Source of the DNA: Candidatus Altarchaeales archaeon
GTDB taxonomy: Archaea > Altiarchaeota > Altiarchaeia > IMC4 > SCGC-AAA252-I15
Length of the DNA stretch: 16,218 nt
Direction: 5' to 3'
NCBI GenBank assembly: GCA_016867655.1
Contig: VGJA01000007.1
Location: 1-16,218 of the forward strand
Shown: positions 2,760 through 16,218 of the stretch, one piece after another
How positions within the stretch are numbered: the stretch's first letter is position 1
Layout of the letters: every line of letters starts with the position of its first letter
Notes under the pieces: model-generated
Told to the model about the DNA's origin: nothing
Database searches by the model: none
Seen by the model: the letters and a program-made list of their open reading frames with translations, nothing else
Position numbers and translations under genes: made by a program

Positions 2760-2777
2760 CTAAAGAAAAATCAATTC

Positions 2778-2869
2778 AGAGCCTATCCCAGTAGGCTAGA
2801 ATACACTACCAAAGAACCAGCCCCAACACATATCCTGGAGAAAGCAACTCGTCTACCAGTATAGGCTCT
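2778..2869. other. Stem-bounded structured intergenic element between cupin and tpiA
   Basis: The 9-base arms AGAGCCTAT (2778-2786) and ATAGGCTCT (2861-2869) are perfect inverted repeats that close a 92-nt segment. A second, competing stem AGCCTA/TAGGCT lies inside the left arm (about 2780-2796). The element sits after the cupin stop and before tpiA on the minus strand, so it could be a cupin 3' UTR, a tpiA leader, or a small RNA. The function is not known. Confidence 0.4.
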
Positions 2870-3213: not shown

Positions 3214-3237
3214 AACTCAGCAATATATATAAGCCAG

Positions 3238-3254
3238 CAAAACTTAAAATATAC
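3238..3254. promoter_or_regulatory. Shared TATA-like block for tRNA-Gly (+) and cupin (-)
   Basis: The segment AAAACTTAAAATATAC lies about 24 nt before the first base of tRNA-Gly, the usual archaeal TATA spacing. Read on the other strand, TTTTAAG lies about 26-30 nt before the cupin ATG. One TBP site could serve both directions. Confidence 0.5.
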
Positions 3255-3272
3255 ACCTTTCACAAGAGAAAA

Positions 3273-3452
3273 GCGTCCATAGTCTAGTGGTAGGACCTAA
3301 GCCTTCCACAGCCTTTTTCTTTCTTTTCGCAAAAGAAAGGCCCCCTAAAGGGGATGTCCCAAAGGGACAAAAACGCTGGCGAAAAAGAAAGAAAACACGC
3401 CAGCCACGCATGGAGAGAGCTTATGACTCGGGTTCGAATCCCGATGGACGCA
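3273..3452 (+). tRNA. tRNA-Gly(UCC), interrupted by a 109-nt intron
   Basis: The acceptor stem GCGTCCA (3273-3279) pairs with TGGACGC (3445-3451), with discriminator A at 3452 and no encoded CCA. The D arm is GTCT/GGAC around AGTGGTA. The anticodon stem TAAGC (3298-3302) pairs with GCTTA (3419-3423). The anticodon loop CTTCCA gives anticodon TCC at 3305-3307. The T arm is TCGGG TTCGAAT CCCGA. The intron (3309-3417) lies between positions 37 and 38. A bulge-helix-bulge is visible: central helix CTTC (3303-3306) with GGAG (3412-3415), 3-nt bulges CA|C and AG|A. It reads GGA and GGG codons. Confidence 0.95.
3309..3417 (+). other. tRNA-Gly intron made of stacked hairpins, related to the tRNA-Leu intron
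   Basis: The intron begins CAGCCTTTTTCTTTCTTT, as does the tRNA-Leu intron at 16051, and shares the segment around ACGCTGGCGAAAAA (3373-3386 here, 16086-16099 there). It folds into consecutive stems: CTTTCTTTT/AAAAGAAAG (3319-3339, loop CGC), CCCC/GGGG (3342-3353), TGTCCC/GGGACA (3355-3369, loop AAA) and GCTGGCG/CGCCAGC (3375-3404). No long open frame or homing-endonuclease motif is present; it is far too short for one. Confidence 0.85.
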
Positions 3453-3455
3453 AAC

Positions 3456-3635
3456 CTTTTTTCTTTCTTTAAAAAGAAAGAAAAAAGCTTTACCAAAAAA
3501 GAAAGTGCCGTGTAACGGCATGCCAGCATTTCAATGCTGGCAAATCCCGTCCCTTCGGGACGGGACGTGCCCCCAAAGGGGGCACTGTAGGAGGGGGTCA
3601 GGAACAACTTAGAACTGGGTCCAGGTTACCTGGAC
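3456..3635. repeat. Chain of six perfect hairpins between tRNA-Gly and tRNA-Gln
   Basis: Consecutive non-overlapping stems: a 15-bp T/A palindrome (3456-3487), TGCCGT/ACGGCA (3506-3520, loop GTA), a 10-bp stem TGCCAGCATT/AATGCTGGCA (3521-3542), TCCCGTCCC/GGGACGGGA (3545-3565, loop TTC), GTGCCCCC/GGGGGCAC (3567-3585, loop AAA) and GTCCAGG/CCTGGAC (3619-3635, loop TTA). The first palindrome is nearly the same as the one inside the tRNA-Leu intron. No TATA-like box is visible ahead of tRNA-Gln, so the chain is probably transcribed as spacer between the two tRNAs. Confidence 0.8.
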
Positions 3636-3645
3636 GCGGTTCAGA

Positions 3646-3755
3646 AGCCCTGTAGGGTAGTGGCCAATCCTTCCCGACTTTGGCGGCATCCCCGGTGGGA
3701 TTCCGGGGAAAACCGACGACATCGGGAGACGGAGGTTCGAATCCTCCCAGGGCTA
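3646..3755 (+). tRNA. tRNA-Gln(UUG), interrupted by a 37-nt intron
   Basis: The acceptor stem AGCCCTG (3646-3652) pairs with CAGGGCT (3748-3754), with discriminator A at 3755. The D-arm segment GGGTAGTGG...ATCC resembles archaeal tRNA-Gln. The anticodon stem CCCGA (3673-3677) pairs with TCGGG (3722-3726); the loop CTTTGG gives anticodon TTG at 3680-3682. The T arm is GGAGG TTCGAAT CCTCC. The intron is placed at 3684-3720 between positions 37 and 38; inside it CCCCGG/CCGGGG forms a stem. The bulge-helix-bulge is imperfect: CTTT against GACG has one T-C mismatch and one G-U pair, flanked by GG|C and AC|A bulges. Confidence 0.93.
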
Positions 3756-3769
3756 TGGCCTTTAATAAA

Positions 3770-3817
3770 GTGCACCTACAAGGTGCACAATCAAAGGTAA
3801 TCCTTTTTGTTTTTTTT
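3770..3817 (+). terminator. Hairpin plus T-rich tract after tRNA-Gln
   Basis: GTGCACC (3770-3776) and GGTGCAC (3782-3788) form a 7-bp stem with loop TACAA, followed at 3803-3817 by two T runs. Archaeal termination relies on T runs, so this is a plausible end of the tRNA transcript. Confidence 0.55.
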
Positions 3818-3843
3818 GCTTTAGCATACTATATTCTATGTTG

Positions 3844-3854
3844 TTTATATATAT
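3844..3854 (+). promoter_or_regulatory. TATA box of the nucleotidyltransferase gene
   Basis: TTTATATATAT is centred about 32 nt before the ATG at 3881. With normal spacing, transcription would start about 5 nt before the start codon, giving a nearly leaderless mRNA. This supports the ATG at 3881 over the longer upstream-open frame. Confidence 0.6.
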
Positions 3855-3880
3855 GTAGCTACAATGTATACACATATACT

Positions 3881-4660
3881 ATGGAAACATTGATTAAGGA
3901 ATGCAAGCCGCGCGGTAATTCCGCAAGCGTTTACGTGCCAAAGGATTGGGAAAACCAGTTGGTTAAGGTTAGCTTGCTTTCCCCGAGAGAATTGATACTT
4001 GAAGTCTTGAAACCGCACCTACAACACATTAAAGGCGTGTATGTATACGGAAGTTATGTCCGGGGGGAGGCTAAAGGAGGTTCTGATATAGATGCATTAG
4101 TTGTTGTCTCCAAAAAGATGGGTATCATCTCCAAGAAGCCGTTGGAGTTGATTGTGGCAACAGAAGAAGAGCTAAGAGCGACATTGAACAAATATCCCAT
4201 TCCCCTTAAGTCTATCCTCAATGAAGCGCAGGTATTGATAAACGACGAGTTGCTTGAAAGATTACAGGCGGTTGAGATTGACAAACAAAGATATATTGAC
4301 CTACTGAACGAGACAATAGAAAGAGCTGAAAAATACGCTCCAGTGATTGAGCGTGAACAGAATATAAGGGCTATTGTATACTCTCTAATGCTGAGGTTGA
4401 GGGCGGTATACCACCTGGAATTAATGAAGGAAGGCGGGAAGTATACACACAGGGATTTTAGGGAGTATGTTTTGAAGTGTGGTTTAGACGAAGATGCCTA
4501 TGAAGAGTTGTGCTGGGTTTATCGCATGGTCAGGGATAAAAAAGCATTTTCAGAGGCGAAAATAACCTTAGGTGACATTAAAAAATTGAATGCGATTGTT
4601 CGTGTTGAAGCTGGACGCGTGAAGGAGGTGTTAGATGTCCAAAAGAAAAAAGCGTCTTGA
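3881..4660 (+). CDS. MNT-type nucleotidyltransferase with N-terminal AbrB/DUF2080-like and C-terminal helical domain
   Basis: 259 residues in three parts. Residues 1-35 (CKPRGNSASVYVPKDW) look like the small AbrB/DUF2080-type beta domain found on archaeal and transposon-linked proteins. Residues about 45-110 contain GSYVRGEAKGGSDID (57-71), the complete GSx10DxD signature of minimal nucleotidyltransferases such as the MntA antitoxin. Residues about 145-240 are helical; RLRAVYH gives an Rx5H pattern like HEPN proteins, but a HEPN call is only inference. The start is fixed by the TATA box at 3844; the open frame running back into tRNA-Gln is incidental. The 3' end overlaps the next gene by 26 nt, so the two are translationally linked. 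It may be a toxin-antitoxin-like or RNA-modifying module. Confidence 0.8.
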   Translation: METLIKECKPRGNSASVYVPKDWENQLVKVSLLSPRELILEVLKPHLQHIKGVYVYGSYVRGEAKGGSDIDALVVVSKKMGIISKKPLELIVATEEELRATLNKYPIPLKSILNEAQVLINDELLERLQAVEIDKQRYIDLLNETIERAEKYAPVIEREQNIRAIVYSLMLRLRAVYHLELMKEGGKYTHRDFREYVLKCGLDEDAYEELCWVYRMVRDKKAFSEAKITLGDIKKLNAIVRVEAGRVKEVLDVQKKKAS

Positions 4661-4832
4661 AAAAAAGATAGCAAGCTTGGAAGAGCGTGTTGCCGAGCAT
4701 GAGCGCAAGAGGGCTGAGTATACAGGAGAGGAGGTTTACATCAGGCCTTACTGGGAGGGCGAGATTCAAGACCTTATTCGTGAGAAAGAGAAGGCAATTA
4801 GATTGATGGGGCGCAAAAAGAAAAGCAAATAA
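4635..4832 (+). CDS. Small basic coiled-coil protein paired with the nucleotidyltransferase
   Basis: 65 residues, very rich in Lys, Arg and Glu. It starts MSKRKKRLEKKIASLEERV and continues as one long amphipathic helix broken by YIRPYWEGEIQ in the middle, ending GRKKKSK. A strong ribosome-binding site GGAGGTG (4622-4628) lies 6 nt before the ATG, inside the end of the upstream gene, which it overlaps by 26 nt in another frame. The overlap and shared promoter suggest the products act together, for example as partner or antidote. I do not recognise a named family; it has no visible catalytic motif or membrane segment. Confidence 0.75.
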   Translation: MSKRKKRLEKKIASLEERVAEHERKRAEYTGEEVYIRPYWEGEIQDLIREKEKAIRLMGRKKKSK

Positions 4833-4834
4833 GT

Positions 4835-4845
4835 CTTTTATATTT
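4835..4845 (+). promoter_or_regulatory. TATA box of the exchanger gene
   Basis: CTTTTATATTT is centred 26 nt before the ATG at 4866, predicting a leaderless transcript that starts at the start codon. Confidence 0.55.
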
Positions 4846-4865
4846 GTTTCTCCAAATTCTTTTAC

Positions 4866-5858
4866 ATGTTTGCAGTGGTGTTGTTTGTTGCTTTTTTGCT
4901 GTCGATTTACTTGATTTTGAGGGGTTCGGATTGGATTACGGATTCTTCGGTTCATGTGGCGAAGCATTTGGGGACCAGCAATTTGGCTGTGGGCTTGCTT
5001 GTCATCTCTTTTTTGCTGAGCCTGCCGGAGTTGGTTATTGCAGTCAGCTCTATTTTGAAGGGGCATGCTGCGCTGGGTTTTGGCGCTAGTATCGGTTCTG
5101 TGATTGTGAACATCGGCTTGATTGTCGGCATTTCTGCTTTGATTAGGCCTATGAGGGTTCCCAGGATTATGGTCACTAGGGACATGATTTTCATGGTGGT
5201 TGTGTCCATAATCGTCGTTGCGATGGGTTTTGAGGATAGAATGCTGTCCAGAACTGACGGTTTTGTGTTCTTGCTTTTGTTCCTACCCTATGTGATAAAT
5301 GTTTATGAGCAGGAGAGGAATTTAACCCACAGCGAGAGGATAATGAAGACTGAGAAGATGACTGAGGCCCTTGAGATGTATGGGGAGTATGAGGTGGACC
5401 ACAAGCCGAAGTATGGTTTGAAATACTTTCTTTTGGGTGCTTTTGTGCTGATACTTGGTTCTGAGATTTTTGTGAGGGTTTTGCTTGAACTGGCTTCTTT
5501 CATGAGGCTTCCGGAGCTTCTTGTTGGGGTGACTTTAGGCGCCATTGGGCCGAGCATTCCCAATCTTGCGGCGTCTTTGGGTGCTGCGCGGAAGGGCGTT
5601 GAGGAGCTTGTGGTTTCTGAGACAATAGGCTCGAACATCTTCACCTTGCTGATTACAATCGGCGTTATAGCTGTTATAAGCCCGATTATGGTCGACGAAA
5701 TGGTTGTGATGGTTACTGCTCCAGCCCTGCTGCTTGTAACCTTCATACTGCTTGTCGCCATGCTGAAGGGGCATGTGAGGAGGCGGGACGGCCTGCTTTT
5801 GCTGTTGGTTTACGTTGGCGCTGTGATGGCTGAGTTCATATTTAGGATAAATCATTGA
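4866..5858 (+). CDS. Sodium/calcium exchanger family (CaCA, YrbG-like) membrane protein
   Basis: 330 residues with about ten hydrophobic segments in two halves, joined by a charged loop at about 140-185 (YEQERNLTHSERIMK). The alpha-1 repeat is recognisable at about residues 42-82: SFLLSLPELVIAVSS then GFGASIGSVIVNIGLIVG. The alpha-2 repeat at about 222-262 reads GAIGPSIPNLAASLGAA then SETIGSNIFTLL. Family members exchange cytoplasmic Ca2+ (or another cation) for Na+ or H+ across the membrane. The Glu expected in alpha-2 (SLPEL in the family) is Asn here, while alpha-1 keeps it, so ion stoichiometry or substrate may differ. It has its own TATA box and is probably monocistronic. Confidence 0.88.
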   Translation: MFAVVLFVAFLLSIYLILRGSDWITDSSVHVAKHLGTSNLAVGLLVISFLLSLPELVIAVSSILKGHAALGFGASIGSVIVNIGLIVGISALIRPMRVPRIMVTRDMIFMVVVSIIVVAMGFEDRMLSRTDGFVFLLLFLPYVINVYEQERNLTHSERIMKTEKMTEALEMYGEYEVDHKPKYGLKYFLLGAFVLILGSEIFVRVLLELASFMRLPELLVGVTLGAIGPSIPNLAASLGAARKGVEELVVSETIGSNIFTLLITIGVIAVISPIMVDEMVVMVTAPALLLVTFILLVAMLKGHVRRRDGLLLLLVYVGAVMAEFIFRINH

Positions 5859-5883
5859 TGGATCTGTGGTGTGGGGTTCTTAT

Positions 5884-6000
5884 TACAAACCCGCAGAATA
5901 TCCCCTTCGGGGAATGAATGCGATGCTGCTTCAATATGCCTTCTAATTGGTAATCGTCTGCGGGTTTGTATATCATACCCTGCCTTTTAAGGCAGGGTAT
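5884..6000. repeat. Nested inverted repeats downstream of the exchanger gene
   Basis: A perfect 14-bp inverted repeat, TACAAACCCGCAGA (5884-5897) with TCTGCGGGTTTGTA (5957-5970), encloses a TCCCC/GGGGA hairpin (5901-5913, loop TTC). Four bases later comes a perfect 12-bp hairpin ATACCCTGCCTT/AAGGCAGGGTAT (5975-6000, loop TT). It lies in a 240-nt gap between the exchanger stop and the next small gene. It could act as a terminator or structured 3' UTR, and its stem style matches the hairpin arrays at 3319-3635 and 7406-7650. Confidence 0.75.
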
Positions 6001-6059
6001 TTGATTTTGGCCTTTGTAGCACGTTATCAAAATGTCGATTTTTTCATGAAAACATATGT

Positions 6060-6071
6060 CTTTTTATACTT
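6060..6071 (+). promoter_or_regulatory. TATA box of the four-cysteine small protein gene
   Basis: CTTTTTATACTT is centred about 32 nt before the ATG at 6098, giving a predicted leader of about 6 nt. It supports the reality of the short downstream gene. Confidence 0.5.
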
Positions 6072-6097
6072 GAACTGCGATACTTTAAGTCCTAAAA

Positions 6098-6241
6098 ATG
6101 AGCAGAGTGTGTGTTTTAGACGGTCGGAGAATCTGCAACAACTCTTGTATCGCCTATGAGCCTGGCGGCGGATGCAGGGCTTCTGGTCTTGGTTCTAGGA
6201 GAAGAATAGATTCTGACGACTTTGGTTTGAGGGAAGTTTAG
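6098..6241 (+). CDS. 47-residue four-cysteine protein, unknown function
   Basis: The short frame reads MSRVCVLDGRRICNNSCIAY, then EPGGGCRASGLGSRRRID and an acidic tail DSDDFGLREV. Cysteines fall at residues 5, 13, 17 and 26 (Cx7CxxxCx8C), a spacing that could bind one zinc ion or an Fe-S cluster. A clear TATA box lies upstream, and the frame closes with TAG well before the next promoter. There is no signal peptide or membrane segment; basic residues flank the Cys core, so a small cytoplasmic nucleic-acid or protein adaptor is possible. I do not recognise the family. It precedes the zinc-ribbon/winged-helix gene but has a separate promoter. Confidence 0.6.
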   Translation: MSRVCVLDGRRICNNSCIAYEPGGGCRASGLGSRRRIDSDDFGLREV

Positions 6242-6291
6242 TCTTGCTTTTTTCTGCAAGGTTTTGAGTGTTAGTGTAGGTTAAAATAAAG

Positions 6292-6304
6292 TTTTTATAC
6301 TTAG
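6292..6304 (+). promoter_or_regulatory. TATA box of the membrane-wHTH gene
   Basis: TTTTTATACTTAG is centred about 48 nt before the ATG at 6345, predicting a start near 6323 and a leader of about 22 nt without an obvious ribosome-binding site. Confidence 0.45.
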
Positions 6305-6344
6305 AATACTATTTTTAGATTACCTCTTTTCATATTTACCTAAA

Positions 6345-7403
6345 ATGGAATTGAATACCAAAATATTTTTGTCTTTCGTCCTGAGTTTTGGTGCTCTGGG
6401 CGCTGCTTACATGGTTTTCTACAAGTACCGGGGTTATAAAAAGCATCAGCTTGAGTTTTTGGATTTGGTTTACGACAGTACTGCTCGGCAGCTTGAGCTT
6501 TTTGTCGTTAACCAGGGGGAGAAGTCGGTTTACGTGAATCCTTCATTGAGGTTGATACATTTCTTGAACCCTGAGGAGTGGAGGGAGAAGAATTCCAACG
6601 GAAACGGCAATGGCAACAGCAGTCCGGGGTATATGGCTGCCGGCAAGTGTTACCAGGTTGACAGTGTTATCAAGGGATACAGCTTGATTGGGGACTGCCC
6701 TGAGTCTGTGAGGGTTGAAGGTAAGAGCGTTAGGAAGATTGTCTATCCTTTGCCTGATGACATTAGTTTGAGGGTTTACGACAATATTCAGGTTGACTCG
6801 ATGTATGGCGTTAACAGCGACTCCGAAAGCAGGCTGGTTAACACAATGCGTGTTATGCTGAAGGATGATGTTGACTGTGGGGTTTTTGACGGTGTTGTTC
6901 CAGAGGGCGTTGATGGCATTAAACCTGCTTACAACCCTAATTTCTGCACGGTTCCGACTGTGGACAAAGAGGGTGTCATAGCTGAAAGCGATTTTCCACT
7001 GCAAGCTATGTGCGTCTGCTGCGGCAAGGACCGGTGGCTGGGGTGGATTGTTGATGGTAATCATGTTTGCTCTGAGTGCAAGGACTTTCTTGATGGGGGT
7101 GTAGAACAGCTGGTTGACGAGGGTTTTCCATTGCTGGCCGAGCAGGAGGCCGAGATTTTTGTGGGTGATATACTGTCGCAGAGGGAGGAGGTTTGCGATT
7201 CTGGTGCTGATGTTGGCTTGAAGCCGAGGCATAAGGAAATTCTTGGTTTGCTGGAGCATGAGAATAACCTTACGGTGAAGAAGATTTCCAAGCTGTTGTC
7301 CCTGCAGGAGTCTACTGTGGTGTCTGATTTGAATTTTTTGATGAAGAGTGAGCTTGTTGGCAGAGTGAAGGTTGGAAACAAGTTTATGTACCATCTGGCT
7401 TGA
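6345..7403 (+). CDS. Predicted membrane-anchored zinc-ribbon / winged-helix protein
   Basis: 352 residues. One N-terminal membrane segment (about 7-26, FLSFVLSFGALGAAYMVFY) is followed by a basic stretch KYRGYKKHQ; by the positive-inside rule the rest is cytoplasmic. Residues about 35-200 look like a beta-rich domain, interrupted by a low-complexity NGNGNGNSS linker at about 85-93. Residues 223-245 hold CVCC and CSEC, a CxxC-x15-CxxC zinc ribbon. Residues about 292-352 form a winged helix: LKPRHKEILGLLE, helix-turn-helix LTVKKISKLLSLQESTVVSD, then wing GRVKVGNKFMYHL. This suggests a membrane-tethered DNA-binding regulator, but no target or signal can be named. It is convergent with smc across the hairpin array. 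Confidence 0.8.
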   Translation: MELNTKIFLSFVLSFGALGAAYMVFYKYRGYKKHQLEFLDLVYDSTARQLELFVVNQGEKSVYVNPSLRLIHFLNPEEWREKNSNGNGNGNSSPGYMAAGKCYQVDSVIKGYSLIGDCPESVRVEGKSVRKIVYPLPDDISLRVYDNIQVDSMYGVNSDSESRLVNTMRVMLKDDVDCGVFDGVVPEGVDGIKPAYNPNFCTVPTVDKEGVIAESDFPLQAMCVCCGKDRWLGWIVDGNHVCSECKDFLDGGVEQLVDEGFPLLAEQEAEIFVGDILSQREEVCDSGADVGLKPRHKEILGLLEHENNLTVKKISKLLSLQESTVVSDLNFLMKSELVGRVKVGNKFMYHLA

Positions 7404-7405
7404 TT

Positions 7406-7650
7406 TTTCGGTTTTCGGTCTTCGGTTTTCCCCCTTACGGGGATTCATGCCATAGGCATGAACGGTCTTCGGTTCTCGATCTTCCCCCTTATGGGGATTC
7501 CCTTCGGGAACAGTCTCCGGGTTTCCCTTTATCAGGAATCCCTTTGGGGGACAGAAAACGGAAAACAGTCCCCTCGGGGGATCCCCGATAGGGGAAAACC
7601 CGTGAAAACCATGGAGACCATGAAAACTTGAAAACCAGTGAAAACCGAAA
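7406..7650. repeat. Hairpin array filling the gap between the convergent wHTH and smc genes
   Basis: The array is bounded by a perfect 11-base inverted repeat, TTTCGGTTTTC (7406-7416) and GAAAACCGAAA (7640-7650), the latter touching the smc stop. Inside are CCCC TTAC GGGG (7431-7442), TTCATGCC/GGCATGAA (7444-7462, loop ATA), CCCC TTAT GGGG (7485-7496), TTCCC/GGGAA (7498-7510, loop TTC), TCCCC/GGGGA (7569-7581, loop TCG), TCCCC/GGGGA (7582-7595, loop GATA) and CATGG/CCATG (7610-7622). GTTTTC motifs on the left and six or more GAAAAC motifs on the right can pair across the array. It may end both transcripts. Confidence 0.8.
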
Positions 7651-10600
7651 CTACGCCTGTTGTACGCCTGCTAGTTTTACTCCTACGACTTGTGAGATTC
7701 CGTTTGTCATTGAGACTCCTATCACCGAGTTGACTTGTTTTAATACTGCGTCGTTGTGTGTTACTAGTATGAATTGGGTTGTGGATTCTCTTAGCATTTC
7801 TGTGAGTTTGATGGAGTTTATTTTGTCCAGTGCGGCGTCCAGTTCGTCTATGAGGTAGAAGTCTGACGGCTTGTATTGTTGCACTGCCAGTAGGAATGCC
7901 GCTGACGTGAGGACTTTTTCGCCTCCCGACATTGCGTCCAGGCTCATCACTTTTTTTCCTCCTGGAGAGGCTCTGATGAGCAGTCCGCTTTCCGATATGT
8001 TGGTCGGGTTGTCGAGCATCAGGGTTCCCTGGCCGTCTGAGAGTTTGGCGAAAATTCTTTCAAAGTTTTCTTTAACAACCTCAAAGGTTTTCATGAAGGT
8101 TTCGTATTTTTTCTGCTCTACTTTGTCCATAAAGTCGAATATCGACTGCCTTTCAGTCTTCAGTGTGCTTAATTTCTCGAAGATTTCTTCATACTCCTTT
8201 TTGACCTGCTCGAAGGTTTCTATGGCGCGCATGTTTATGGAGCCGAACTGCCCCAGGCGTTCTTCCAGTTTTTCAAGCTCTTCCTTTAGTTCCTTCATGG
8301 ATTTGTCCAATACTTCAACTCCGGCGTATTTTTCGAACTCTTTGTTGAGGCCTTCAAGCTGCGTGTCGCTCTTTGTTTTTTCTATCACTACCTGGTTTAT
8401 CTCCTCGTTAACGCGTTCGAAGCTTCTTTCCAGGGCGCCGATTTCCTCGCTGCTGGCTGTTATCTCGGTTTCAATTTGGCCTCTTCTCTGAATCAAGTCT
8501 TCTATCTCTTTTATGACCTTTGCGCTTTCTTTCTCAACTAATGCTTTGTCTTCCCTCAGTTTTTTGAGCGCTTCCTCAACTTTTGTCTTGTCTGCGTTTG
8601 TCGTCTTTTCGTCTGCTTCCAGCTTTTCTATCTCCTGGCTTGCTTCAGACATCTGAGCTTCCAGCAGGCTTTTCCTCTCCAACAAGGTGTTTTCCTCTAT
8701 GCTGGTGTCTCTTGCCTTGTCCTTCAGCTTGTCCAAAACGCTTGTGTCTCTCCCACCTCTGGCCTTGACCAGCTTGCTGTGTTGCCTTTCCTTTTCTTCA
8801 AGCTCTTTGCCGAGCGTTTTTATTGACTCACTTCTTTTGTCGCAGTTTTCCTGCATTTCAGCCAGTTTTTTCTTAAGCTTTTCGGCATTCGCCTTCAGCT
8901 CCACCTCTTTTTCAGACAATGCTTTCTGCTCAAAGGAAAGCTGGCCTTCAACGGTCTTGTCTTCAGAATAATCCATCTCCAGCTTTGCAATAGCGTTCTT
9001 CAGCTTGCTTTCAGAGTCAAACATCTTCTGTATTTCAGACTCCATTACAGTGGTTTGTCCCTCCAGCTCTGTTATCTCTTTTTCCTGGAGCTCGAGATTT
9101 GAAAAGCCTATTTCAATCTTCTTTGTGTGGCCGCCGGTGATTGCACCGCTCGCCTCAAACAAGTCGCCTTCAATAGTGACCATACGCCATCTGCCTATGC
9201 CGACCTTCTTTGCATCATTCATGTCCCCAACGATTATTGTGTTCTCAAACACGTAGTCGAAAATCTTTTTGTATTTCTTCTCAGTTTTTATGAAGTCTCT
9301 TGCAAACCCGATGGCCTCTTTGGGAGGGGTTTCCTCAACCTGCGTGTTTATCTTGTCCAAAGGCAGGAACGTGGCCCTGCCAACCTCTTTCTTCCTCAAG
9401 TAGTCGATGCACTTTCCAGCCACGTCAACGTTTTCAACAACGATGTTTTGCATCTTCTCTCCTGCAGCTATCTGGAGGGCGGTTTCGTATTTCTCCTCGG
9501 CGACGTTTCCAAGCTGGAACACTGGCCCGTGGATTCCTGGAACAACATCTTTTATCTTCAATACAGCGGTTATTGCGCTCTTCAATCCGTGGCTTGCCTG
9601 CTCCAAAGCCTTTAAGTTAGCTCTTTTTTCGGCAACGCTTACCCTGGTTTTTTCAAGGGCTTCCTCGCTTTCCCTAATGCTTGCCCTCAAAGAATCTAGT
9701 TCTTTTTTGGATTCAGCCAGCTTGCTGGCTGTTGAAGAAACTTTTGCCTTCTGTTCTTTCAGCCTTGTTTCAGCACTCTTTCTTTTTTCGGCAATCTCGA
9801 ACAGATTCCTGCCTGCTAGTTCTTCATCTTTTCTCAAGTCTTCCAGATTCTGCTGGTCGACTATGTTCAATTCCTTGAGCGTTTTCGCCTGCGAGTGTAT
9901 CTCGTACACCCTCTTCTGCAGTTCTTCAATCTCCTTTTCAAGCTTCTGCTCGCTGCTGTCCACAACCTCTTTTTCTATGTCGCCTTTGATTCTAGCTGCT
10001 TCTTCCCTGACTTTTCCAAGCTGTGTCTCAACCTCCTTCCTCTCGTCCTCGAGCATCTGTTTCCTGGTTTTCCTCTTTACCTTGTTTTCCGAATCAGAAA
10101 CCAGCTTTTCATTCAGCATTGCAATGTGGTCTTCCCTGCGGCCTATCTCCCCGTTGAGCTCTATTATCCTCTGCCTGCTTTTCTCCTCCTCAAGGTTGAT
10201 TATCTCAGAGTTGATTCTCTTGAGCTCCTGGTTTCCTCTCACTATCTTTTCCCTGAGCCCGGAAACCCTCTTTGTGTCGCCTTCCTTCGTCTGCTTCAGG
10301 GCTTCCATGCTTTCAACCAGCTTTTCATTCCTCTTTTCAATGCTCTTTATCTCCTTGAAAAGCATGGACGCACTGTGCCTTTTTATCTCCCCAGTGACGT
10401 TCTGGTATTCCAACGCCTCGTCCCTCTCCTTCTTGAGTTCGTTCATGTAGCCCTGCTTCTCGCCCAAGACAATGTGAGTCTCATTTATCAGCTTTTCAAC
10501 CTTCTCAAGCTCCTTTATGGCTTTGGCCTTTTTTTCGTCGTATTCAGCTATGCCGCAGAGGCTGTCTATCACCTCCCTTCTCTCGGGAGACTTCATCTCA

Positions 10601-11010: not shown

Positions 11011-11034
11011 TCTAAGTTAATTTATAGTATTCTG

Positions 11035-11043
11035 AAATAATAT
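11035..11043. promoter_or_regulatory. Shared A/T core between smc (-) and methyltransferase (+)
   Basis: AAATAATAT sits at the midpoint of the two divergent ATGs (11010 and 11068), about 26-29 nt from each, as expected for one TBP site with near-leaderless transcripts both ways. TTTATAGTA at 11021-11029 is an alternative for the plus-strand gene. Confidence 0.4.
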
Positions 11044-11067
11044 GATTCCGTCCTTAAATCATTAAAA

Positions 11068-11631
11068 ATGATTTCAGTTGTCTATGACGTCGGGCTATAC
11101 AGGAGTTTACTCGTAAAATGCGTCCAGAAGGGGGATATTGTAATCGAGATTGGGCCCCACACCGGAAAGAGCACTTTGGGCTATGTCAGCAACGCAGGCT
11201 TGGTCATAGCCTTAGACAAGTCTCCTGAAGCTGAAAAAAGCTTCAAAAAGCTTGCAAGGGAGCACAGGAATTTGCGTTTCATGAGGAAAGATGTCCGCGG
11301 CTTTGAGGCAATAAAAAAGGTTTTGCAGTTAACCCCAAAATGCGACGTGCTGGCCGTCGACTTGGGCGGTGGAAGGTTCAGCGACACAGTATACAAGGTT
11401 TGGGCGTGCTGGAGCGGCGTCTTCAAGCCAAAACACTCCATAATAAGGAGCAGAGCCCTGGCGGAGTTCATACAAAAGGTTAAGGTGGAAGATAATTCCG
11501 TGAAGAAAAAGTTTGCAGACGACGGCTGGCTCAGCACATGGGGCAGGGCAACGCCCTATGCCTTGAGGAAACAGCTTGATGAATTCAAACACTATGTTGA
11601 CATAAAAAAGCGGATTAAAGACGAAGACTGA
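11068..11631 (+). CDS. Class I SAM-dependent methyltransferase-like protein
   Basis: 187 residues with the Rossmann methyltransferase order. Motif I is VIEIGPHTGKST at about 25-36, the acidic end of strand 2 is VIALDKS at about 46-52, motif III-like RFMRKDV is at about 70-76, and DVLAVDLGGG at about 93-102 supplies strand 4 and the catalytic-side loop. The C-terminal third (SRALAEFIQKVKVE, GRATPYALRKQ) is archaeal in character. I cannot assign a substrate: RNA, protein and small molecule are all possible. The ATG at 11068 is the first in frame, and its 3' end overlaps the convergent membrane gene by 17 nt. Confidence 0.72.
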   Translation: MISVVYDVGLYRSLLVKCVQKGDIVIEIGPHTGKSTLGYVSNAGLVIALDKSPEAEKSFKKLAREHRNLRFMRKDVRGFEAIKKVLQLTPKCDVLAVDLGGGRFSDTVYKVWACWSGVFKPKHSIIRSRALAEFIQKVKVEDNSVKKKFADDGWLSTWGRATPYALRKQLDEFKHYVDIKKRIKDED

Positions 11632-12415
11632 ATGCGAAAAAAACCAGGAATGCAAGCCAGCTAACGGCATAAGGTATCACAAAAATCCTCCTCCTTTGGA
11701 GCCACGTCTCATATACTGGCTTCTCAGATTTGAACTTTCCTGGGCTGGCTGGCCTAAAAAAACTCTTATACAACTCGGTAACCATCCTCTCAACGCCAAT
11801 TGAAGAAAGCAATACAACGCCATAACTGCCGGAGAGATGTGAAAGCAAAATTCCGGCAAACGCTGAAATAACAGGGCTTCTCATAAACTTCAACACATCA
11901 AAACCTTCTATCGGGGCGTCCTTAAGACAGCCGCCGACTGCAACCAGCAGACCGCCAGCAAGCCCGAAAACCATTCCGCCAAACAGCCTGCCCAAGCTGG
12001 TTTTCTGGCCTATGCTGAAAACCAAAAGCGTGAGCAAAACCGAGCCCAAGCCGAAAACCAAGCCAGTCAGAAGCCGCTTCCCCCTGCCTTCAACCACTCT
12101 ACCAAGCATGTGCACTGTGGAAGGTATCTTATACTTGTCCTGGGGTTCCTCCCTGATGTAAGCCTTTATGAACTCGGTCAACGCTCTCTCAAAAACCACC
12201 ACAACGCCATACAAAACCCCCAGGTTTATCGTTTCAACAGACTCCGCTTTCAGAAAGAACACTGCAAGGAAGCCCAGCAATATTCCAAACACAACGCTCC
12301 TAAAAAATTTTTTCAATGTGAAAATTTCGTAAGGCGAGTCCTTGAAAGCCCCCCAGCAGGCCGAATGCAATCCGGCAAAAAACCCCGCCACAGCCGGCAA
12401 AATAATATTGTCCAT
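11615..12415 (-). CDS. Internally duplicated multi-pass membrane protein, unknown function
   Basis: 266 residues with about six hydrophobic segments, arranged as two copies of one unit. Copy 1 (about 10-90) has GAFKDSPYEIFTLKKFFRS, then a hydrophobic segment, then VVVFERALTEFIKAYIREEP. Copy 2 (about 145-225) has GCLKDAPIEGFDVLKFMRS, then VVLLSSIGVERMVTELYKSF. The conserved parts are a KDxPxExF..LKF.RS loop and an ER..TE..K helix that keeps charged residues near the membrane. Such duplications are common in transporters, but I do not recognise the family. The ATG at 12415 faces the divergent YqaA-like gene; the 3' end overlaps the methyltransferase gene by 17 nt. Confidence 0.75.
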   Translation of the reverse strand: MDNIILPAVAGFFAGLHSACWGAFKDSPYEIFTLKKFFRSVVFGILLGFLAVFFLKAESVETINLGVLYGVVVVFERALTEFIKAYIREEPQDKYKIPSTVHMLGRVVEGRGKRLLTGLVFGLGSVLLTLLVFSIGQKTSLGRLFGGMVFGLAGGLLVAVGGCLKDAPIEGFDVLKFMRSPVISAFAGILLSHLSGSYGVVLLSSIGVERMVTELYKSFFRPASPGKFKSEKPVYETWLQRRRIFVIPYAVSWLAFLVFFAFSLRL

Positions 12416-12436
12416 CCTTTACTACTGTCTTTCATG

Positions 12437-12449
12437 AAATATAACTTAA
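12437..12449. promoter_or_regulatory. Shared TATA block between duplicated membrane protein (-) and YqaA-like gene (+)
   Basis: AAATATAACTTAA is centred near 12441, 26 nt from both divergent ATGs (12415 and 12467). Both transcripts would begin at or next to the start codon. Confidence 0.55.
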
Positions 12450-12466
12450 ACCTACAATATCTAAGC

Positions 12467-12925
12467 ATGTTCGAATTCCTCACACACTTGGTCGTGGAAT
12501 ACGGGCTGATGGGCTTGTTCGCAACCTCCTTGGTGGGTTCAACAATATTCATACCCTTCGCAACAGAGTTGGTGTTCCCACCACTGCTTGCAGCAGGCAT
12601 AAGCCCATACAAAATACTGTTCGCCAGCGTGCTGGGCTCAACACTCGGAGTGTGGGTGAACTACCTCTTTGGCTACTATAGCATACACCTAATCCACAAA
12701 TACCTCAAAAAAGAGGAAATACACAAAGCCAAAAAAATCATGGACAAATACGGCTGGTTTGGACTGCTACTGGTGTTCATACTGCCAATACCCCTGCCCA
12801 CAGATCCAATAACAGTATTATGCGGTATGGGCGAGATGAATCCAGTTGAATTCACAATTGTGGTTTTGATAGGAAAAATAGTGAAATACGGGATAGCAGT
12901 CGGACTCCTGTCACTAATACTCTAA
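12467..12925 (+). CDS. YqaA/DedA (VTT-domain) family membrane protein
   Basis: 152 residues with four to five hydrophobic segments. The pattern LVGSTIFIPFATELVFPPLL, then GSTLGVWVNYLFGYY, a basic amphipathic stretch YLKKEEIHKAKKIMDKYG and LLVFILPIPLPTDPITVLCG matches the YqaA branch (COG1238) of the DedA/VTT superfamily. Some members of the superfamily act as lipid scramblases or flippases; the role of this one is unknown. The ATG at 12467 was chosen because the TATA block lies exactly 26 nt upstream; an ATG at 12434 and a longer open frame overlapping the divergent gene are rejected. The stop is 1 nt from the convergent PIN-like gene. Confidence 0.85.
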   Translation: MFEFLTHLVVEYGLMGLFATSLVGSTIFIPFATELVFPPLLAAGISPYKILFASVLGSTLGVWVNYLFGYYSIHLIHKYLKKEEIHKAKKIMDKYGWFGLLLVFILPIPLPTDPITVLCGMGEMNPVEFTIVVLIGKIVKYGIAVGLLSLIL

Positions 12926-12926
12926 T

Positions 12927-13580
12927 TCAGTCAAGGCCGCTTTTATACTCCTCAATCTCGCCCCAAGTTATCGCACAGCCTGAAAACTTCAAAGCGCACA
13001 ACACCGCCTCAATAATATTGCCCTCACCCTTGCTCATATACTTTGAAAGAATACCCCTCTCATAGGCCAATGCCGCAATCTCCGCCGACCTAATAACAGA
13101 AACCTTCGGAAGCAATCCACGGACCCTGTTAACCTGCTCCAAATTAAGCTCCACACTTTGGTTGTTCTGCCTCTCCAACAACTCCCTCAATTGCTTCGGG
13201 TCCTCCAACAAAAGTCTAGTAGTCCTCTCATCAACCAAAATCGCTTCAACATCACCCTCCTTCGCCAAAGCCAAAGCCTCAGCCTCGCCCTGATGGATAA
13301 TCTTCAAAGGCCTCTTGTCAATCAAATAAGCAGAATTAAAACACTCAAGAATCCTCTTCGTCAAGCCGCTGTCTGGCTTCCTCACAGAAATAATCTTGCT
13401 GTCAAAAAGCTTGTTAACCCTCATAGAACCCAAAGCAAAACGCTTGCCACCCATAGGTCTCGAGACTACTTCCTCAAAAACAGTAGGAGAGACAACAATC
13501 TTTTTTCCCAACTCAACCAAAACCTGCGACATACAGGTCATAGACAATGAGATAATGGCACTGGAATCCGCGGAAATCAT
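12927..13580 (-). CDS. PIN-like domain protein
   Basis: 217 residues. Acidic residues sit in the order expected for a PIN-fold nuclease: ISADSSAIISL at the N-terminus (Asp5), QGEAEALALA at about residue 97 and AILVDERTTRLLL at about residue 113. SPTVFEEVV near residue 31 also fits the fold. The C-terminal 60 residues (IRSAEIAALAYERGILSK and GNIIEAVLCALKFSG) are helical and extra compared with short VapC toxins. No VapB-like antitoxin gene is adjacent; it is divergent from tbp with ATGs 54 nt apart. A ribonuclease role is inferred from the fold only. Confidence 0.7.
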   Translation of the reverse strand: MISADSSAIISLSMTCMSQVLVELGKKIVVSPTVFEEVVSRPMGGKRFALGSMRVNKLFDSKIISVRKPDSGLTKRILECFNSAYLIDKRPLKIIHQGEAEALALAKEGDVEAILVDERTTRLLLEDPKQLRELLERQNNQSVELNLEQVNRVRGLLPKVSVIRSAEIAALAYERGILSKYMSKGEGNIIEAVLCALKFSGCAITWGEIEEYKSGLD

Positions 13581-13586
13581 TTTAAT

Positions 13587-13617
13587 ATTTTATATATATC
13601 TCTGTATCATATAATAT
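13587..13617. promoter_or_regulatory. Divergent promoter region of PIN-like gene (-) and tbp (+)
   Basis: Two TATA-like blocks are present, TTTTATATATAT (13588-13599) and CATATAATAT (13608-13617). The second is about 22 nt before the tbp ATG and 32 nt before the PIN-like ATG; the first would place the tbp start about 13 nt before its ATG. As tbp encodes the factor that binds such boxes, self-control is possible. Confidence 0.5.
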
Positions 13618-13633
13618 CTTCCTCAATATTAAA

Positions 13634-14179
13634 ATGACGTTAAGAACCCACATAGAAAACATGGTTTCAGCCATAACATTAAACCAAAAAATAGACATAA
13701 AAAACTTCGCCTCAAAAGCCTCAGGCGTAGAATACAACCCAGAAAACTTTCCCGGAGTCGTATTCAGAGTAAGAGAACCCAAACTAGCGATGCTCATCTT
13801 CAGCTCAGGCAAAGTAATATGCACCGGCGCCCGAGACAAAAAAGACATCGAAACCGCCCTAGAAAAATTGCGCAAAAAGCTGAACGAAGCCGGCATACGC
13901 CTCAGAGGAAAACCCAAAGTAGAAATACAAAACATAGTCGCCTCATCCGATCTAGAACTAAAAATAAACCTAGACCTGCTGGCAACAGAATGCGTGAACA
14001 CAGAATACGAACCAGAACAATTCCCAGGCCTAGTATTCCGCCTAGAACAACCAAAAACAGTAATGCTCATCTTCAGAAGCGGCAAAATAATCATCACAGG
14101 AGCAAAAAACACCAGTGACATCAAAAAAGCAGCCGAAGAAACCAAAAAAATGGTATTAGAATACAAAGCAATATTCTAA
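13634..14179 (+). CDS. tbp: TATA-binding protein
   Basis: 181 residues, the normal archaeal size, forming the saddle that binds TATA boxes and recruits TFB and RNA polymerase. The two direct repeats are clear. Repeat 1 has IENMVSAITLNQKIDI, GVEYNPENFPGVVFRV and AMLIFSSGKVICTGA. Repeat 2 has IQNIVASSDLELKINL, EYEPEQFPGLVFRL and VMLIFRSGKIIITGA. Each ends in an amphipathic helix (KKDIETALEKL, TSDIKKAAEET). There is no long acidic C-terminal tail. Its own promoter is A/T-rich and shared with the PIN-like gene. Confidence 0.98.
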   Translation: MTLRTHIENMVSAITLNQKIDIKNFASKASGVEYNPENFPGVVFRVREPKLAMLIFSSGKVICTGARDKKDIETALEKLRKKLNEAGIRLRGKPKVEIQNIVASSDLELKINLDLLATECVNTEYEPEQFPGLVFRLEQPKTVMLIFRSGKIIITGAKNTSDIKKAAEETKKMVLEYKAIF

Positions 14180-14511
14180 AAACAAAACCTGCAACACCAC
14201 CCTATTTTTTACCCCCACCTTCCCAATCAATATCCACCAAAAACCAGTCCACACGCCCGTGGAGTAGCTGATTCTCAACACTGCCGGTGTCACGACCAAG
14301 AATTTCTAAAATGCTTTTCGTTATACAGCTTATTTGATACAAGGTGTACCAACTGCGCACAGGGTGTATCAAATCCCTTCTATTCCCAGGCGGTTGGTTT
14401 TATGGGCGGATAATAAACTGCGTGATAATATCCTCTAGGCTCCATTCTCTTGGCTTGTGGCGGGTTATATCGTATTTTTAGTGGAAATTACATAGTATTC
14501 TAGTGGTTGAT
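14180..14511. other. Intergenic region tbp to cax with a perfect 10-bp inverted repeat
   Basis: No gene is seen here. ATTTGATACA (14332-14341) and TGTATCAAAT (14365-14374) are perfect inverted repeats with a 23-nt spacer that itself contains GGTGTACC. The repeat is about 140 nt before the antiporter start and could be an operator or an RNA stem. A TATA-like GTTATATCG lies at 14463-14471. Shorter stems, CCAC/GTGG near 14252-14265 and ACAC/GTGT near 14278-14291, are weak. Confidence 0.5.
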
Positions 14512-15576
14512 ATGGTTGTTAGGCTCGAGAAAATCACGTTGTTGTTGCTTCTTTTTGTCCCGGTTAGTGTTTATTTCAGCTTTTTCACGGAGGATAGGCT
14601 TTTGACTTTCGTTACTTCGGTTTTTGCCATCATACCTCTTGCCCGCATTATCGGCTATGCGACCAAAGAGGTTATCCTGCAGACCCGTCCTGTATTCGGG
14701 GGTTTTTTGAACGCGACGTTCGGTAATGCGGTGGAGCTGATCATAGCAGTGTTTGCGTTGAGGGCTGGTCTTTTGCAGGTTGTTCAGGCGTCTATCGTCG
14801 GCAGCGTCTTGAACAATCTCCTGCTGCTTATCGGCCTGAGCATCTTCTTCGGGGGCTTAAAGTACAAAAAGCAGACTTTCAACAAGGAGTCTGTCGGCGT
14901 TTCCTCCACAATGCTGATAATAGCCATCGTAGGACTGACAATCCCCACCATATTCTCGCTCACTGTGAAGGCTAACTCCTGGGGGGATATGATGATAAGC
15001 AACGCGGTTGCCGTGGTCTTGGCGGTCATCTACCTTGCAGGGATTCTATTCGCCTTTATCACGCACAAACATCTTTTTGACGCCAGCGATGAAATCAAGG
15101 CTGAACGCGAGACACCGCAGATAAGCGTGAAAACAGCCGCCATCATCCTCCTCTTGACCACGATAGCGGTGGTCTTTGAGTCTGAACTGCTGGTGGAAGG
15201 ATTCAAGCATGCGATAGCCGACTACGGGCTGTCGCAGGCTTTTGTGGGCGTGGTGGTCATCGCAACAATAACAAACATCGCCGAAAAAATCAACGCCGTC
15301 CATTTCGCAAGGGAGAACAAGCTTGACGTGGCATTGGAAATCGGTCTTACCAGCGCCACCCAGATAGCGTTGTTTGTAGTCCCCATACTCGTTTTCGTAA
15401 GCCACATATTCGACTACGGGTTCTCCCTGGTCTTCTCACCGTTCGAGATAGTCTCCGTCTTCTTCGCTGTGATGATAGTCAACTACCTCTCCTCAGACGG
15501 CAAATGCAACTGGCTGGAGGGCGTGCAACTAATATCCGTCTACCTGATAATCGCAATAGCATTCTACTTCATATAA
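14512..15576 (+). CDS. cax: Ca2+/H+ antiporter, CAX type
   Basis: About 354 residues with ten to eleven hydrophobic segments. It exports cytoplasmic Ca2+ (or Mn2+) using the proton gradient. The first cation-binding repeat is clear: GGFLNATFGNAVELIIAVFA then ASIVGSVLNNLLLLIG. The second repeat is ATITNIAEKINAVHFA then LEIGLTSATQIALFVVP. The key acidic residues (Glu in NAVE and NIAE) are both kept. The family's central acidic loop is reduced to SDEIKAERETPQ. I prefer the ATG at 14512 to the GTG at 14503; GGTTGAT precedes it. A possible operator-like repeat lies upstream. Confidence 0.95.
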   Translation: MVVRLEKITLLLLLFVPVSVYFSFFTEDRLLTFVTSVFAIIPLARIIGYATKEVILQTRPVFGGFLNATFGNAVELIIAVFALRAGLLQVVQASIVGSVLNNLLLLIGLSIFFGGLKYKKQTFNKESVGVSSTMLIIAIVGLTIPTIFSLTVKANSWGDMMISNAVAVVLAVIYLAGILFAFITHKHLFDASDEIKAERETPQISVKTAAIILLLTTIAVVFESELLVEGFKHAIADYGLSQAFVGVVVIATITNIAEKINAVHFARENKLDVALEIGLTSATQIALFVVPILVFVSHIFDYGFSLVFSPFEIVSVFFAVMIVNYLSSDGKCNWLEGVQLISVYLIIAIAFYFI

Positions 15577-15885
15577 GTTAATCCCTGAGGCATACCGTAC
15601 CGTTGCTTTCAACAGCGCAAACACTTGCTGGGTATCCCCTTCCAATTACTCTCTTTCATAACCCAATACTAAGACGCCAAACCACTTGTCGATTCACCCG
15701 AAAAAGACTTTTTTAACCAGAAAACCCCTATAAATTGAGTCAAAAAACGATATCGACAAGTCGATTGGCGATAATATACTATTTACATAAAAATACCGCC
15801 TAAATCAGGCCTGAAAAGCAAAATTTTCGAACGGTTTCCAAAAAACATTAAAGAGGCATAAGTCAAGGTCAAAAACAACCATAAA
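15577..15885. other. Intergenic region before the tRNA-Leu locus with an inverted repeat and TATA-like box
   Basis: There is no convincing coding frame. ACTTGTCGAT (15684-15693) and ATCGACAAGT (15752-15761) are a perfect 10-base inverted repeat. Between them lies CCTATAAATT (15728-15737), a good TATA box whose start would fall near 15758, so a short RNA reading toward the tRNA-Leu fragment is conceivable. Nothing else is recognised. Confidence 0.4.
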
Positions 15886-15950
15886 GCGGGGGTACCCGAG
15901 CGGCCAAAGGGGCTGGACAGCAACCCCTTTGCGAAAGGTGTTGCATCCCC
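15886..15950 (+). pseudogene. tRNA-Leu 5' fragment with an unrelated hairpin tail
   Basis: The first 28 bases (15886-15913) are identical to the 5' end of the tRNA-Leu at 16013: acceptor arm, D arm and position 26. Then the sequence diverges: the expected anticodon region has no T33, and a strong hairpin GCAACCCCTTT/AAAGGTGTTGC (15920-15944, one mismatch, loop GCG) follows, closed outside by GGGG (15909-15912) and CCCC (15947-15950). No 3' half, T arm or matching acceptor strand follows. It is most likely a broken duplicate; a split-tRNA 5' half or a tRNA-derived RNA are less likely readings. Confidence 0.6.
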
Positions 15951-15984
15951 AAACACAAAACAAAATTTACCCTTCACTATCATA

Positions 15985-15993
15985 ATATTATAC
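15985..15993 (+). promoter_or_regulatory. TATA box of tRNA-Leu
   Basis: ATATTATAC is centred about 25 nt before the first base of tRNA-Leu, the normal spacing. No equally good box precedes the 15886 fragment. Confidence 0.6.
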
Positions 15994-16012
15994 AAAAATC
16001 AGTCCACAAAAA

Positions 16013-16202
16013 GCGGGGGTACCCGAGCGGCCAAAGGGGCAGGACTTAAGCAGCCTTTTTTCTTTCTTTAAAAAAGAAAGAAAAAACGCTGGCGAAAAAA
16101 GAAAGAAACACCCAACAACCAGCTTTCCTAAAAAGCTTGAGAAAAAAGGTTTGAGTTATCCTGTGGCGCAGGCCTTCGAGAGTTCAAATCTCTCCCCCCG
16201 CA
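16013..16202 (+). tRNA. tRNA-Leu(UAA), interrupted by a 107-nt intron
   Basis: The acceptor GCGGGGG (16013-16019) pairs with CCCCCGC (16195-16201), with discriminator A at 16202. The D stem is CCC/GGG with loop GAGCGGCCAAA. The anticodon stem CAGGA (16040-16044) pairs with TCCTG (16159-16163) and the loop CTTAAG gives anticodon TAA at 16047-16049. A long variable arm (GGC/GCC stem) marks a type II tRNA; the T arm is GAGAG TTCAAAT CTCTC. The intron lies between positions 37 and 38. The bulge-helix-bulge is clear: CTTA (16045-16048) with TGAG (16152-16155), bulges AG|C and TT|A. Confidence 0.96.
16051..16157 (+). other. tRNA-Leu intron, related to the tRNA-Gly intron
   Basis: It begins CAGCCTTTTTTCTTTCTTT, matching the tRNA-Gly intron start, and continues into a 14-bp palindrome (16056-16086, loop AAA) almost identical to the one at 3456-3487. 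The ACGCTGGCG segment (16086-16094) is shared with the tRNA-Gly intron, but its pairing partner CGCCAGC is missing here. A small AGCTTT/AAAGCT stem lies at 16121-16137. The intron ends can also pair: AGCCTTTTTTCT near the start with AGAAAAAAGG near 16140-16149. Confidence 0.85.
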
Positions 16203-16218
16203 ACTGAACCGCGGAGGG

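Follow-up and report, generated by a model that had tools for sequence, protein, structure and literature searches.

A short three-armed element that may be a mobile source of introns in archaeal RNA genes

Small repeats that create an intron where they insert are known in eukaryotes as introners, and the introns they give rise to are spliceosomal and lie in protein genes. In IS200/IS605 elements, a short guide strand beside a hairpin pairs with an internal stretch, a design that the element described here resembles. In archaea, transposition of tRNA introns has been reported in the Thermoproteales, and a 2014 review states its mechanism as unknown (PMC4090602). For Caldiarchaeum, another paper puts forward a mobile-element model of tRNA disruption, in which a 1,868-bp insertion carries a putative recombinase (PMC3293823). 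Introners are mentioned in PMC11782384. The 39 archaeal group I introns given in PMC6125680 all lie in rRNA and, by their coordinates, are longer than 240 nt. In the present work we analysed a 16,218-nt stretch of DNA (hereafter the window) from Candidatus Altarchaeales archaeon (GenBank assembly GCA_016867655.1, contig VGJA01000007.1, positions 1 to 16,218, forward strand), in which a gene-free element of about 45-60 nt occupies the start of the introns of a tRNA-Gly and a tRNA-Leu gene and occurs at further places.

This element behaves like an introner and is filed in no named family. It shares with introners the nature of a small repeat that would make an intron where it inserts, but the introns here are of the splicing-endonuclease type and lie in RNA genes. 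The Thermoproteales introns belong to other lineages; the shared sequence here is a defined unit whose three arms co-vary, which is found outside introns too and some of whose copies have flanking direct repeats. The Caldiarchaeum paper (PMC3293823) describes a similar intron gain with a 5′ tRNA fragment as upstream direct repeat, an arrangement found at 15886-16050 of the window, but the inserted sequence there is more than a kilobase long with a putative recombinase, whereas the element here has ~50 nt and no gene. REP/RAYT systems (PMC3733652) and IS200/IS605 ends are likewise short dispersed hairpins; the present element differs in its third, mirror arm and its direct repeats, and Y1 transposase is missing from 12 of 16 copy-rich genomes. 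Organelles harbour double-hairpin or palindromic elements that are also small mobile hairpins in small genomes, but not in archaea. We know of no mirror third arm in those elements. With respect to group I introns, the two window introns have only 109 and 107 nt and lie in tRNA genes, and no group I family appears among the Rfam matches of both intron loci, even at E up to 1. No description of such an element was found in the open literature, judged from titles and the beginnings of abstracts, preprints not being covered.

The window is contig 7 of the genome designated G000 (1.15 Mb, 78.65% complete); other genomes and fetched loci carry G and L numbers. ARAGORN gives no tRNA in the window by default, and the setting that allows introns was needed, under which tRNA-Gly(UCC) is placed at 3273-3452 with an intron of 109 nt and tRNA-Leu(UAA) at 16013-16202 with an intron of 107 nt, both on the forward strand. 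The Rfam tRNA model also detects the Gly gene (5′ exon 3273-3308, 3′ exon 3418-3452) and does not detect the Leu gene at its cut-off (exons 16013-16050 and 16158-16202). The intron limits derived from tRNA structure, 3309-3417 for Gly and 16051-16157 for Leu, have the lengths given by ARAGORN. Both genes have intron-free orthologues (for Leu in G006, G025, G026 and G027), and removal of either intron at position 37/38 leaves a canonical tRNA. Both introns are predicted to be removed by splicing. Candidate 4-bp central helices of a bulge-helix-bulge can be recognised by eye at the junctions (CTTC/GGAG in Gly, CTTA/TGAG in Leu); minimum-energy folds do not single these out.

One unit opens both introns. 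It consists of CAGC, a C, a pyrimidine arm formed by T5 or T6 and CTTTCTTT, a short loop, the complementary purine arm, the linker CGCTGGCG and a third arm formed by A5 or A6 and GAAAGAAA. The linker reads C, then GCTG, which pairs with CAGC (the pairing named P1), then GCG. The introns have in common the 14-mer ACGCTGGCGAAAAA (3373-3386 and 16086-16099), beyond chance expectation with 0 expected in 200 shuffles; their likeness ends after the third arm, the remainders being unrelated. In the Gly intron, element copy 1 (type I) spans 3309-3394, with P1 CAGC at 3309-3312, arm 1 at 3314-3326, arm 2 at 3332-3339 and 3369-3373, the linker at 3374-3381 and arm 3 at 3382-3394; its arm 2 is split by two mini-hairpins (29 nt, 3340-3368) that are missing in the same-genus relative G001. 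In the Leu intron, copy 4, also of type I, spans 16051-16108 (P1 CAGC 16051-16054, arm 1 16056-16069, arm 2 16073-16086, linker 16087-16094, arm 3 16095-16108), and its arm 3 is the exact mirror of its arm 2. Copy 2 lies flush with the 3′ end of tRNA-Gly at 3453-3505 and comprises AACC, arm 1 (3457-3470), arm 2 (3473-3486), the linker GCTTTACC (3487-3494) and arm 3 (3495-3505). A truncated duplicate of the tRNA-Leu 5′ end, made of acceptor strand, D arm and the start of the anticodon stem, occupies 15886-15918 (32/33 identical to 16013-16045) and is followed by the minimal copy 3 at 15919-15953, which was assigned by eye from P1 GCAA/TTGC, arms TTT/AAA/AAA and the linker end ATCCCC, and whose frame is that of full-length copies in G001. 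All four copies read on the forward strand. An initial sequence-only reading of the window had correctly placed both introns and recognised their common start and internal segment. It had also pointed to a palindrome at 3456-3487 as a related copy, which holds as to the relationship, but the palindrome is not a loose one, being part of the complete copy 2 with its own linker and third arm; copy 3 and the mini-hairpins within arm 2 of copy 1 had been overlooked. Uninterrupted-arm pyrimidine-purine-purine mirror motifs occur twice in the window, against a mean of 0.005 and a maximum of 1 in 200 first-order Markov simulations. When 16051-16112 is folded as single-stranded DNA, with a program that has no triplex model, it gives a hairpin of P1 plus arms with the third arm free (z -4.8). 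Rfam searches of the window element regions return only matches far under the family cut-offs.

The same plan recurs throughout the collected copies, in the order P1 left strand (3-6 nt), C-rich step, pyrimidine arm, loop, purine arm, linker with the P1 right strand, and purine third arm. Arm 3 is arm 2 reversed, that is, a mirror and neither a direct nor an inverted repeat, and it is the three co-varying arms together with P1, and not the palindrome alone, that define the element. Among 125 non-redundant elements collected by a regular expression on fetched loci (at least 4 T or A per run), which are related and not phylogenetically independent, the proximal T-run of arm 1 equals the A-run of arm 3 in 119, against a mean of 52 and a maximum of 71 in 5000 permutations; the runs are unequal in 6. 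Along the inward-continued stem of 83 elements, arm 3 agrees at 0.94 versus 0.70 when permuted (z 12.6), with CTCTT corresponding to GAGAA in LFW-281_4 and Bin_44_1, and arms beyond the regular expression are alike (TCTTTTT/AAAAAGA/AGAAAAA three times in G306, TTTTCTC/GAGAAAA/AAAAGAG in the 23S gene of G017). Among 7-mer pyrimidine arms in the fetched loci (679 kb, overlapping in part), a mirror occurs 161 times versus 5 and 6 times for two other repeat types; the 'direct' type reaches 140 because short GAAA-type arms are near-symmetric. P1 covaries as well (z 13.0 for the 117 elements, z 10.9 when only the 83 distinct linkers are used, 0/2000 permutations), through pairs such as CAGC/GCTG, GAAC/GTTC, CAAC/GTTG, TAAC/GTTA, TGGC/GCCA and GCAC/GTGC, among others. 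Left out of the arm-covariation and direct-repeat sets were L023 (Bradyrhizobium) and L032 (Sporosarcina), bacterial loci from a 20-mer scan that were judged to be chance, and a G186 match in a reading frame (L105); the P1 and pseudoknot set omits L023, L105 and one match of the CTTCTTC kind. A pseudoknot between the loop and the sequence after arm 3 was considered and rejected, being weak overall (z 1.96, n=105, reached in 65 of 2000 permutations), with good CTGCC/GGCAG pairing in a few copies of G011.

Antiparallel A over A-T and G over G-C constitute the code of purine-purine-pyrimidine triplexes. The arms of the element write this code on one strand, whereas the opposite strand would write the parallel pyrimidine type, and a folding of the element into three strands is suggested by this correspondence. 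The acting strand could be DNA or RNA; one argument for a role at the DNA level is that copies lying reversed at the 3′ ends of introns and in tRNA leaders retain the code on the same strand.

An exact pattern of the element matches in 13 of 29 genomes of the phylum, its reversed form in none. A looser pattern matches in 62 of 394 archaeal genomes, of which 23 are among the 29 from the phylum and 39 among the remaining 365, with 409 matches versus 15 for the reversed form, the latter in 12 genomes and with the ratio in G068 being 6 to 3; some start positions overlap, so that matches are not always separate elements, and the fetched loci also overlap in part. Both searches require TTTTCTTT arms and miss shorter-armed copies, such as those in the Gly introns of G002 and G007 and copy 3 of the window; the lack of a match is therefore no proof of absence. 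The settings of 66 copies from the window and the fetched loci were assigned by eye on top of ARAGORN and Rfam, after removal of one repeated row and bearing in mind ARAGORN isotype miscalls (e.g., Gly-UCC of G001 as SeC). Of these, 51 adjoin or lie within a gene for tRNA, 23S rRNA or RNase P RNA or a duplicated piece of a tRNA: 17 lie at the 5′ edge of tRNA introns, 3 are reversed at tRNA intron 3′ edges, 4 lie in 23S genes, 19 are tRNA trailers, 2 follow tRNA 3′ fragments, 5 follow tRNA 5′ fragments and 1 stands at the 3′ end of RNase P RNA. The tRNA introns concerned belong to about a dozen isoacceptors and the 23S genes to two taxonomic families. By eye, copies are also located in the T-loop (G152, G255, G306) and the D-loop (G116, G255) of tRNAs, reversed directly upstream of tRNAs (G201, G198, G316) and at some protein-gene ends; further copies lie in the 16S gene of G306 and both inside and just 3′ of the SRP RNA gene of G152. 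Host genes identified by Rfam comprise tRNA, rRNA, RNase P and SRP RNA. For 19 loci with no evident host RNA, an Rfam search gave one for the element in a single case (SRP RNA, L130), the tRNA in L081 lying some distance from the element.

Several lines of evidence point to movement. In G000 the type-I unit is present not only in both tRNA introns (Gly and Leu) but also in 23S and after a 3′ fragment of tRNA-Trp. The single-contig genome G011 has five near-identical copies of another subtype at separate places, the kind of dispersal seen in miniature inverted-repeat transposable elements (MITEs) and introners. Orthologous sites are found both filled and empty, as expected of a mobile element. 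A search for the Leu-UAA 5′ exon across the 29 phylum genomes, allowing up to 3 mismatches, finds it in 5, of which 4 lack an intron at exactly CTTAAG|ATCCTG. The Gly-UCC 5′ exon is found in 10 phylum genomes, 5 intronless, 2 with a type-I intron and 3 with a different intron, two of these last having minimal arms CTTTT/AAAAG/GAAAA. For Ala-UGC, G000 has an element-bearing intron and the same-genus G001 has none. The movement of introns between tRNA genes that the sequence-only reading envisaged is borne out by the single unit in both introns and by intron-free relatives for both, so that the objection that they are ancient and unrelated fails; copies with the non-repetitive core elsewhere dispose of the objection that only low-complexity sequence is shared. 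Copies outside introns were likewise foreseen, and they extend to tRNA trailers, to the sequence after RNase P RNA and to protein-gene ends, but 'intron-borne' is not the right term for an element dispersed over these places and over 16S, 23S and SRP RNA genes.

Direct repeats were sought by comparing the upstream 116 nt with the next 300 nt in 134 elements with complete flanks. A repeat scoring at least 17, with its upstream copy ending 4-10 nt before arm 1 (equivalent to the start of P1), accompanies 26 of the 134; the upstream stretch stopped 4 nt before arm 1, so the smallest possible distance is 4, and end positions were computed for real pairs only. Five further alignments run from element to element. 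Permuted pairs (n=1059) reach a score of 16 in 1.3% and of 20 in 0.5%, and among 26 real alignments scoring at least 20, 3 are element to element and 23 end at the left edge. Repeat length varies from about 21 to over 110 nt (up to the full length analysed) where a MITE would have a target site duplication of fixed length, and for this reason the element is not filed as a MITE. Frequently the repeats consist of gene ends. Examples are, in G000, the tRNA-Phe 5′ part together with the region upstream of it, in G017 the 5′ part of tRNA-Leu, in G011 what look like the first codons of a gene, in G006 the tRNA-Leu 3′ end and in G012 that of another tRNA. In G316 a 56-nt element stands between two 57-nt repeats, and in the window the direct repeat formed by the tRNA-Leu duplicate stops at 15918, exactly where copy 3 starts. 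Such tRNA pieces were also considered as halves of split tRNAs, an idea that was rejected because the 5′ pieces vary in where they end ahead of the anticodon and are followed downstream by complete genes.

Established at the level of sequence are the architecture, the joint variation of arms and P1, the spread in both orientations, the filled and empty sites and the direct repeats at the left edge. The explanation that we favour, with a probability of about 0.64, is that of a short gene-free mobile element which, on landing in an RNA gene, is tolerated as an intron. The element would insert as DNA with the help of an enzyme, the inserting form probably being a single strand folded as a hairpin plus a third strand (purine-purine-pyrimidine code, with G over G-C and A over A-T), and insertion would duplicate a variable length of the target. 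Copies would persist where the RNA or the gene keeps working: those in tRNA or rRNA loops would be removed as introns by the tRNA splicing endonuclease, and other survivors would be trailers just outside the RNA or copies next to a gene end whose duplication restores the gene. In the window, the outcome would be two introns, one trailer copy and one copy beside the duplicated tRNA-Leu 5′ piece. Since the duplications restore a gene that would otherwise be broken, one insertion process and the survival of working genes could together yield introns, trailers and fragment-plus-element units.

A number of observations weigh against this explanation. No direct repeat borders the Gly intron, the Leu intron or the Gly trailer copy, for which the best scores are 8.5, 7 and 11, respectively, and the right edge is ragged, arm 3 being separated from the second repeat by 4-190 nt that often contain hairpins. 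The arrangement in G316 can also be explained by tandem duplication through an A-rich arm. At least three of the five G011 copies share in addition some 25-30 promoter-like bases on their right, so that their places are not wholly unrelated. For 15 of the 66 copies no RNA-gene setting can be named, and the relatedness of the pooled copies means that the permutation figures overstate their independence. The concentration at RNA-gene borders, with P1 matched copy by copy, could reflect selection for a function there. As to the enzyme, Y1 transposase (PF01797) is present in 66 of the 394 genomes and was not found in G000 or G001, several genomes being incomplete; of the 16 genomes with at least 10 matches, only G011, G017, G088 and G152 have it. 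It is not supported as the mobiliser, and no mobilising gene was found in a search confined to PF01797 and with no larger partner sought.

A function at these borders is the substance of an alternative that we consider unlikely, although it has evidence of its own. The element would then be a functional RNA module that evolves together with its host gene and serves as a structured signal for termination or processing at the borders of stable RNAs, namely 5′ splice sites and the 3′ ends of tRNA, SRP RNA and RNase P RNA, its T-rich arm acting as an archaeal terminator or its P1/third-strand fold steering splicing or 3′ processing. It would account for the left edge being flush with exon ends, for trailers that begin 0-9 nt after many tRNAs and also follow RNase P RNA and SRP RNA, for a P1 that by eye often includes the last tRNA base, and for the ability of the P1 left strand to pair with the intron 3′ end in some introns. 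It fits poorly with the same-strand code kept by copies that stand reversed at the 3′ ends of introns or ahead of tRNAs, with target-like direct repeats, with copies near protein-gene starts and with the absence of the Ala intron copy from a same-genus relative; moreover, a terminator within an essential tRNA or rRNA intron would do harm.

Ordinary intron transposition with gene conversion between tRNA genes, in which the introns themselves would be copied from one splice-compatible site to another with trailing copies as by-products, has a precedent in the Thermoproteales according to the 2014 review (PMC4090602), and intron families of G000 do span tRNAs (type I in Gly and Leu, a GAGCCCC type in Phe and Pro and a related one in Trp). 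It nevertheless appears improbable, as the shared part stops after the third arm with the rest of the Gly and Leu introns unrelated, 24 of the 66 copies are in introns versus 27 beside RNA genes or tRNA pieces, P1 and the arms co-vary in a pooled set much of which is non-intron, and complete elements with direct repeats at protein genes weaken it further. The least credible account, to which we attach hardly any weight, is that of low-complexity T/A tracts arising repeatedly by slippage or fold-back synthesis. The arms are indeed made of T3-6C and GA3-6 units, the surroundings are rich in small hairpins, and the reversed pattern is not wholly missing (15 matches in 12 genomes, with 6 matches to 3 reversed ones in G068); still, matches outnumber reversed ones 409 to 15, antiparallel copying cannot template a mirror, the non-repetitive P1/linker covaries and one unit recurs at separate loci.

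Other features of these genomes were recorded along the way. In the window, 3506-3590, after the trailer copy, holds a row of perfect mini-hairpins of about 15-22 nt each; the element of the Gly intron and the 23S insertions of G000 contain similar ones, and these mini-hairpins may represent a second family of small insertions. A tRNA-Gln(UUG) at 3646-3755 has a 37-nt intron without the element, its orthologue in G001 having a far longer intron with a complete element of another subtype. Among 11 G000 tRNAs called by ARAGORN with introns allowed (window plus 20 sampled contigs), 10 have introns of 37-201 nt, Thr-GGU being the sole intron-free one; two more of intron-free size are found by Rfam on contigs 30 and 45. 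The tRNA-Phe, Pro and Trp introns of G000 (L087, L042, L085) have in common another subtype with linker GGCCCTCGGGTTCAAAG, whose Phe and Pro copies start GAGCCCC. The G000 rRNA genes lie on L041 at 5099-8328 and 9150-10641 (reverse strand), and the 23S gene has two neighbouring insertions, which by eye lie near the peptidyl-transferase region and both carry a 5′-edge element and a reversed 3′-edge element. Duplicated tRNA 3′ ends downstream of full genes, with elements between or after them, are present in L041 (reverse strand, 6236-6400), L085, L179 and L208. In the class-level relatives G025 and G027 (L055, L056, L068, L069, L079, L113, L114), elements stand mainly beside duplications of about 50-110 nt and not beside tRNAs, and several of the duplicated stretches contain ATG codons. 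Many linkers in G198, G283 and G088 (L146-L171) have a TAAGTT/TACGTT/TAGGTT core that was not noticed in the phylum of the window.

Under the favoured explanation of a mobile element tolerated as an intron, we would be dealing with a kind of short dispersed mobile repeat able to become introns, its three-strand design being the new part. A broader proposal, which we hold tentatively and regard as possible rather than probable, is that of a domain-wide class of archaeal mobile elements with an intramolecular-triplex single-strand substrate and a left end self-paired by P1, whose variable-duplication insertion into RNA genes would make tRNA, rRNA and SRP RNA introns as well as scattered tRNA halves and would thus be the engine by which archaea gain introns. 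On the origin of archaeal tRNA introns, the 2014 review reports transposition by an unknown mechanism (PMC4090602). A searchable element with a left edge, an orientation, filled and empty sites and non-intron copies makes intron gain directly testable. Retained as it is in many archaeal families, the three-arm mirror would provide sequence evidence, of a rare kind, that an intramolecular triplex is under selection. Finally, the element offers one possible origin of tRNA fragments beside intact tRNA genes, and it may be a source of archaeal introns.

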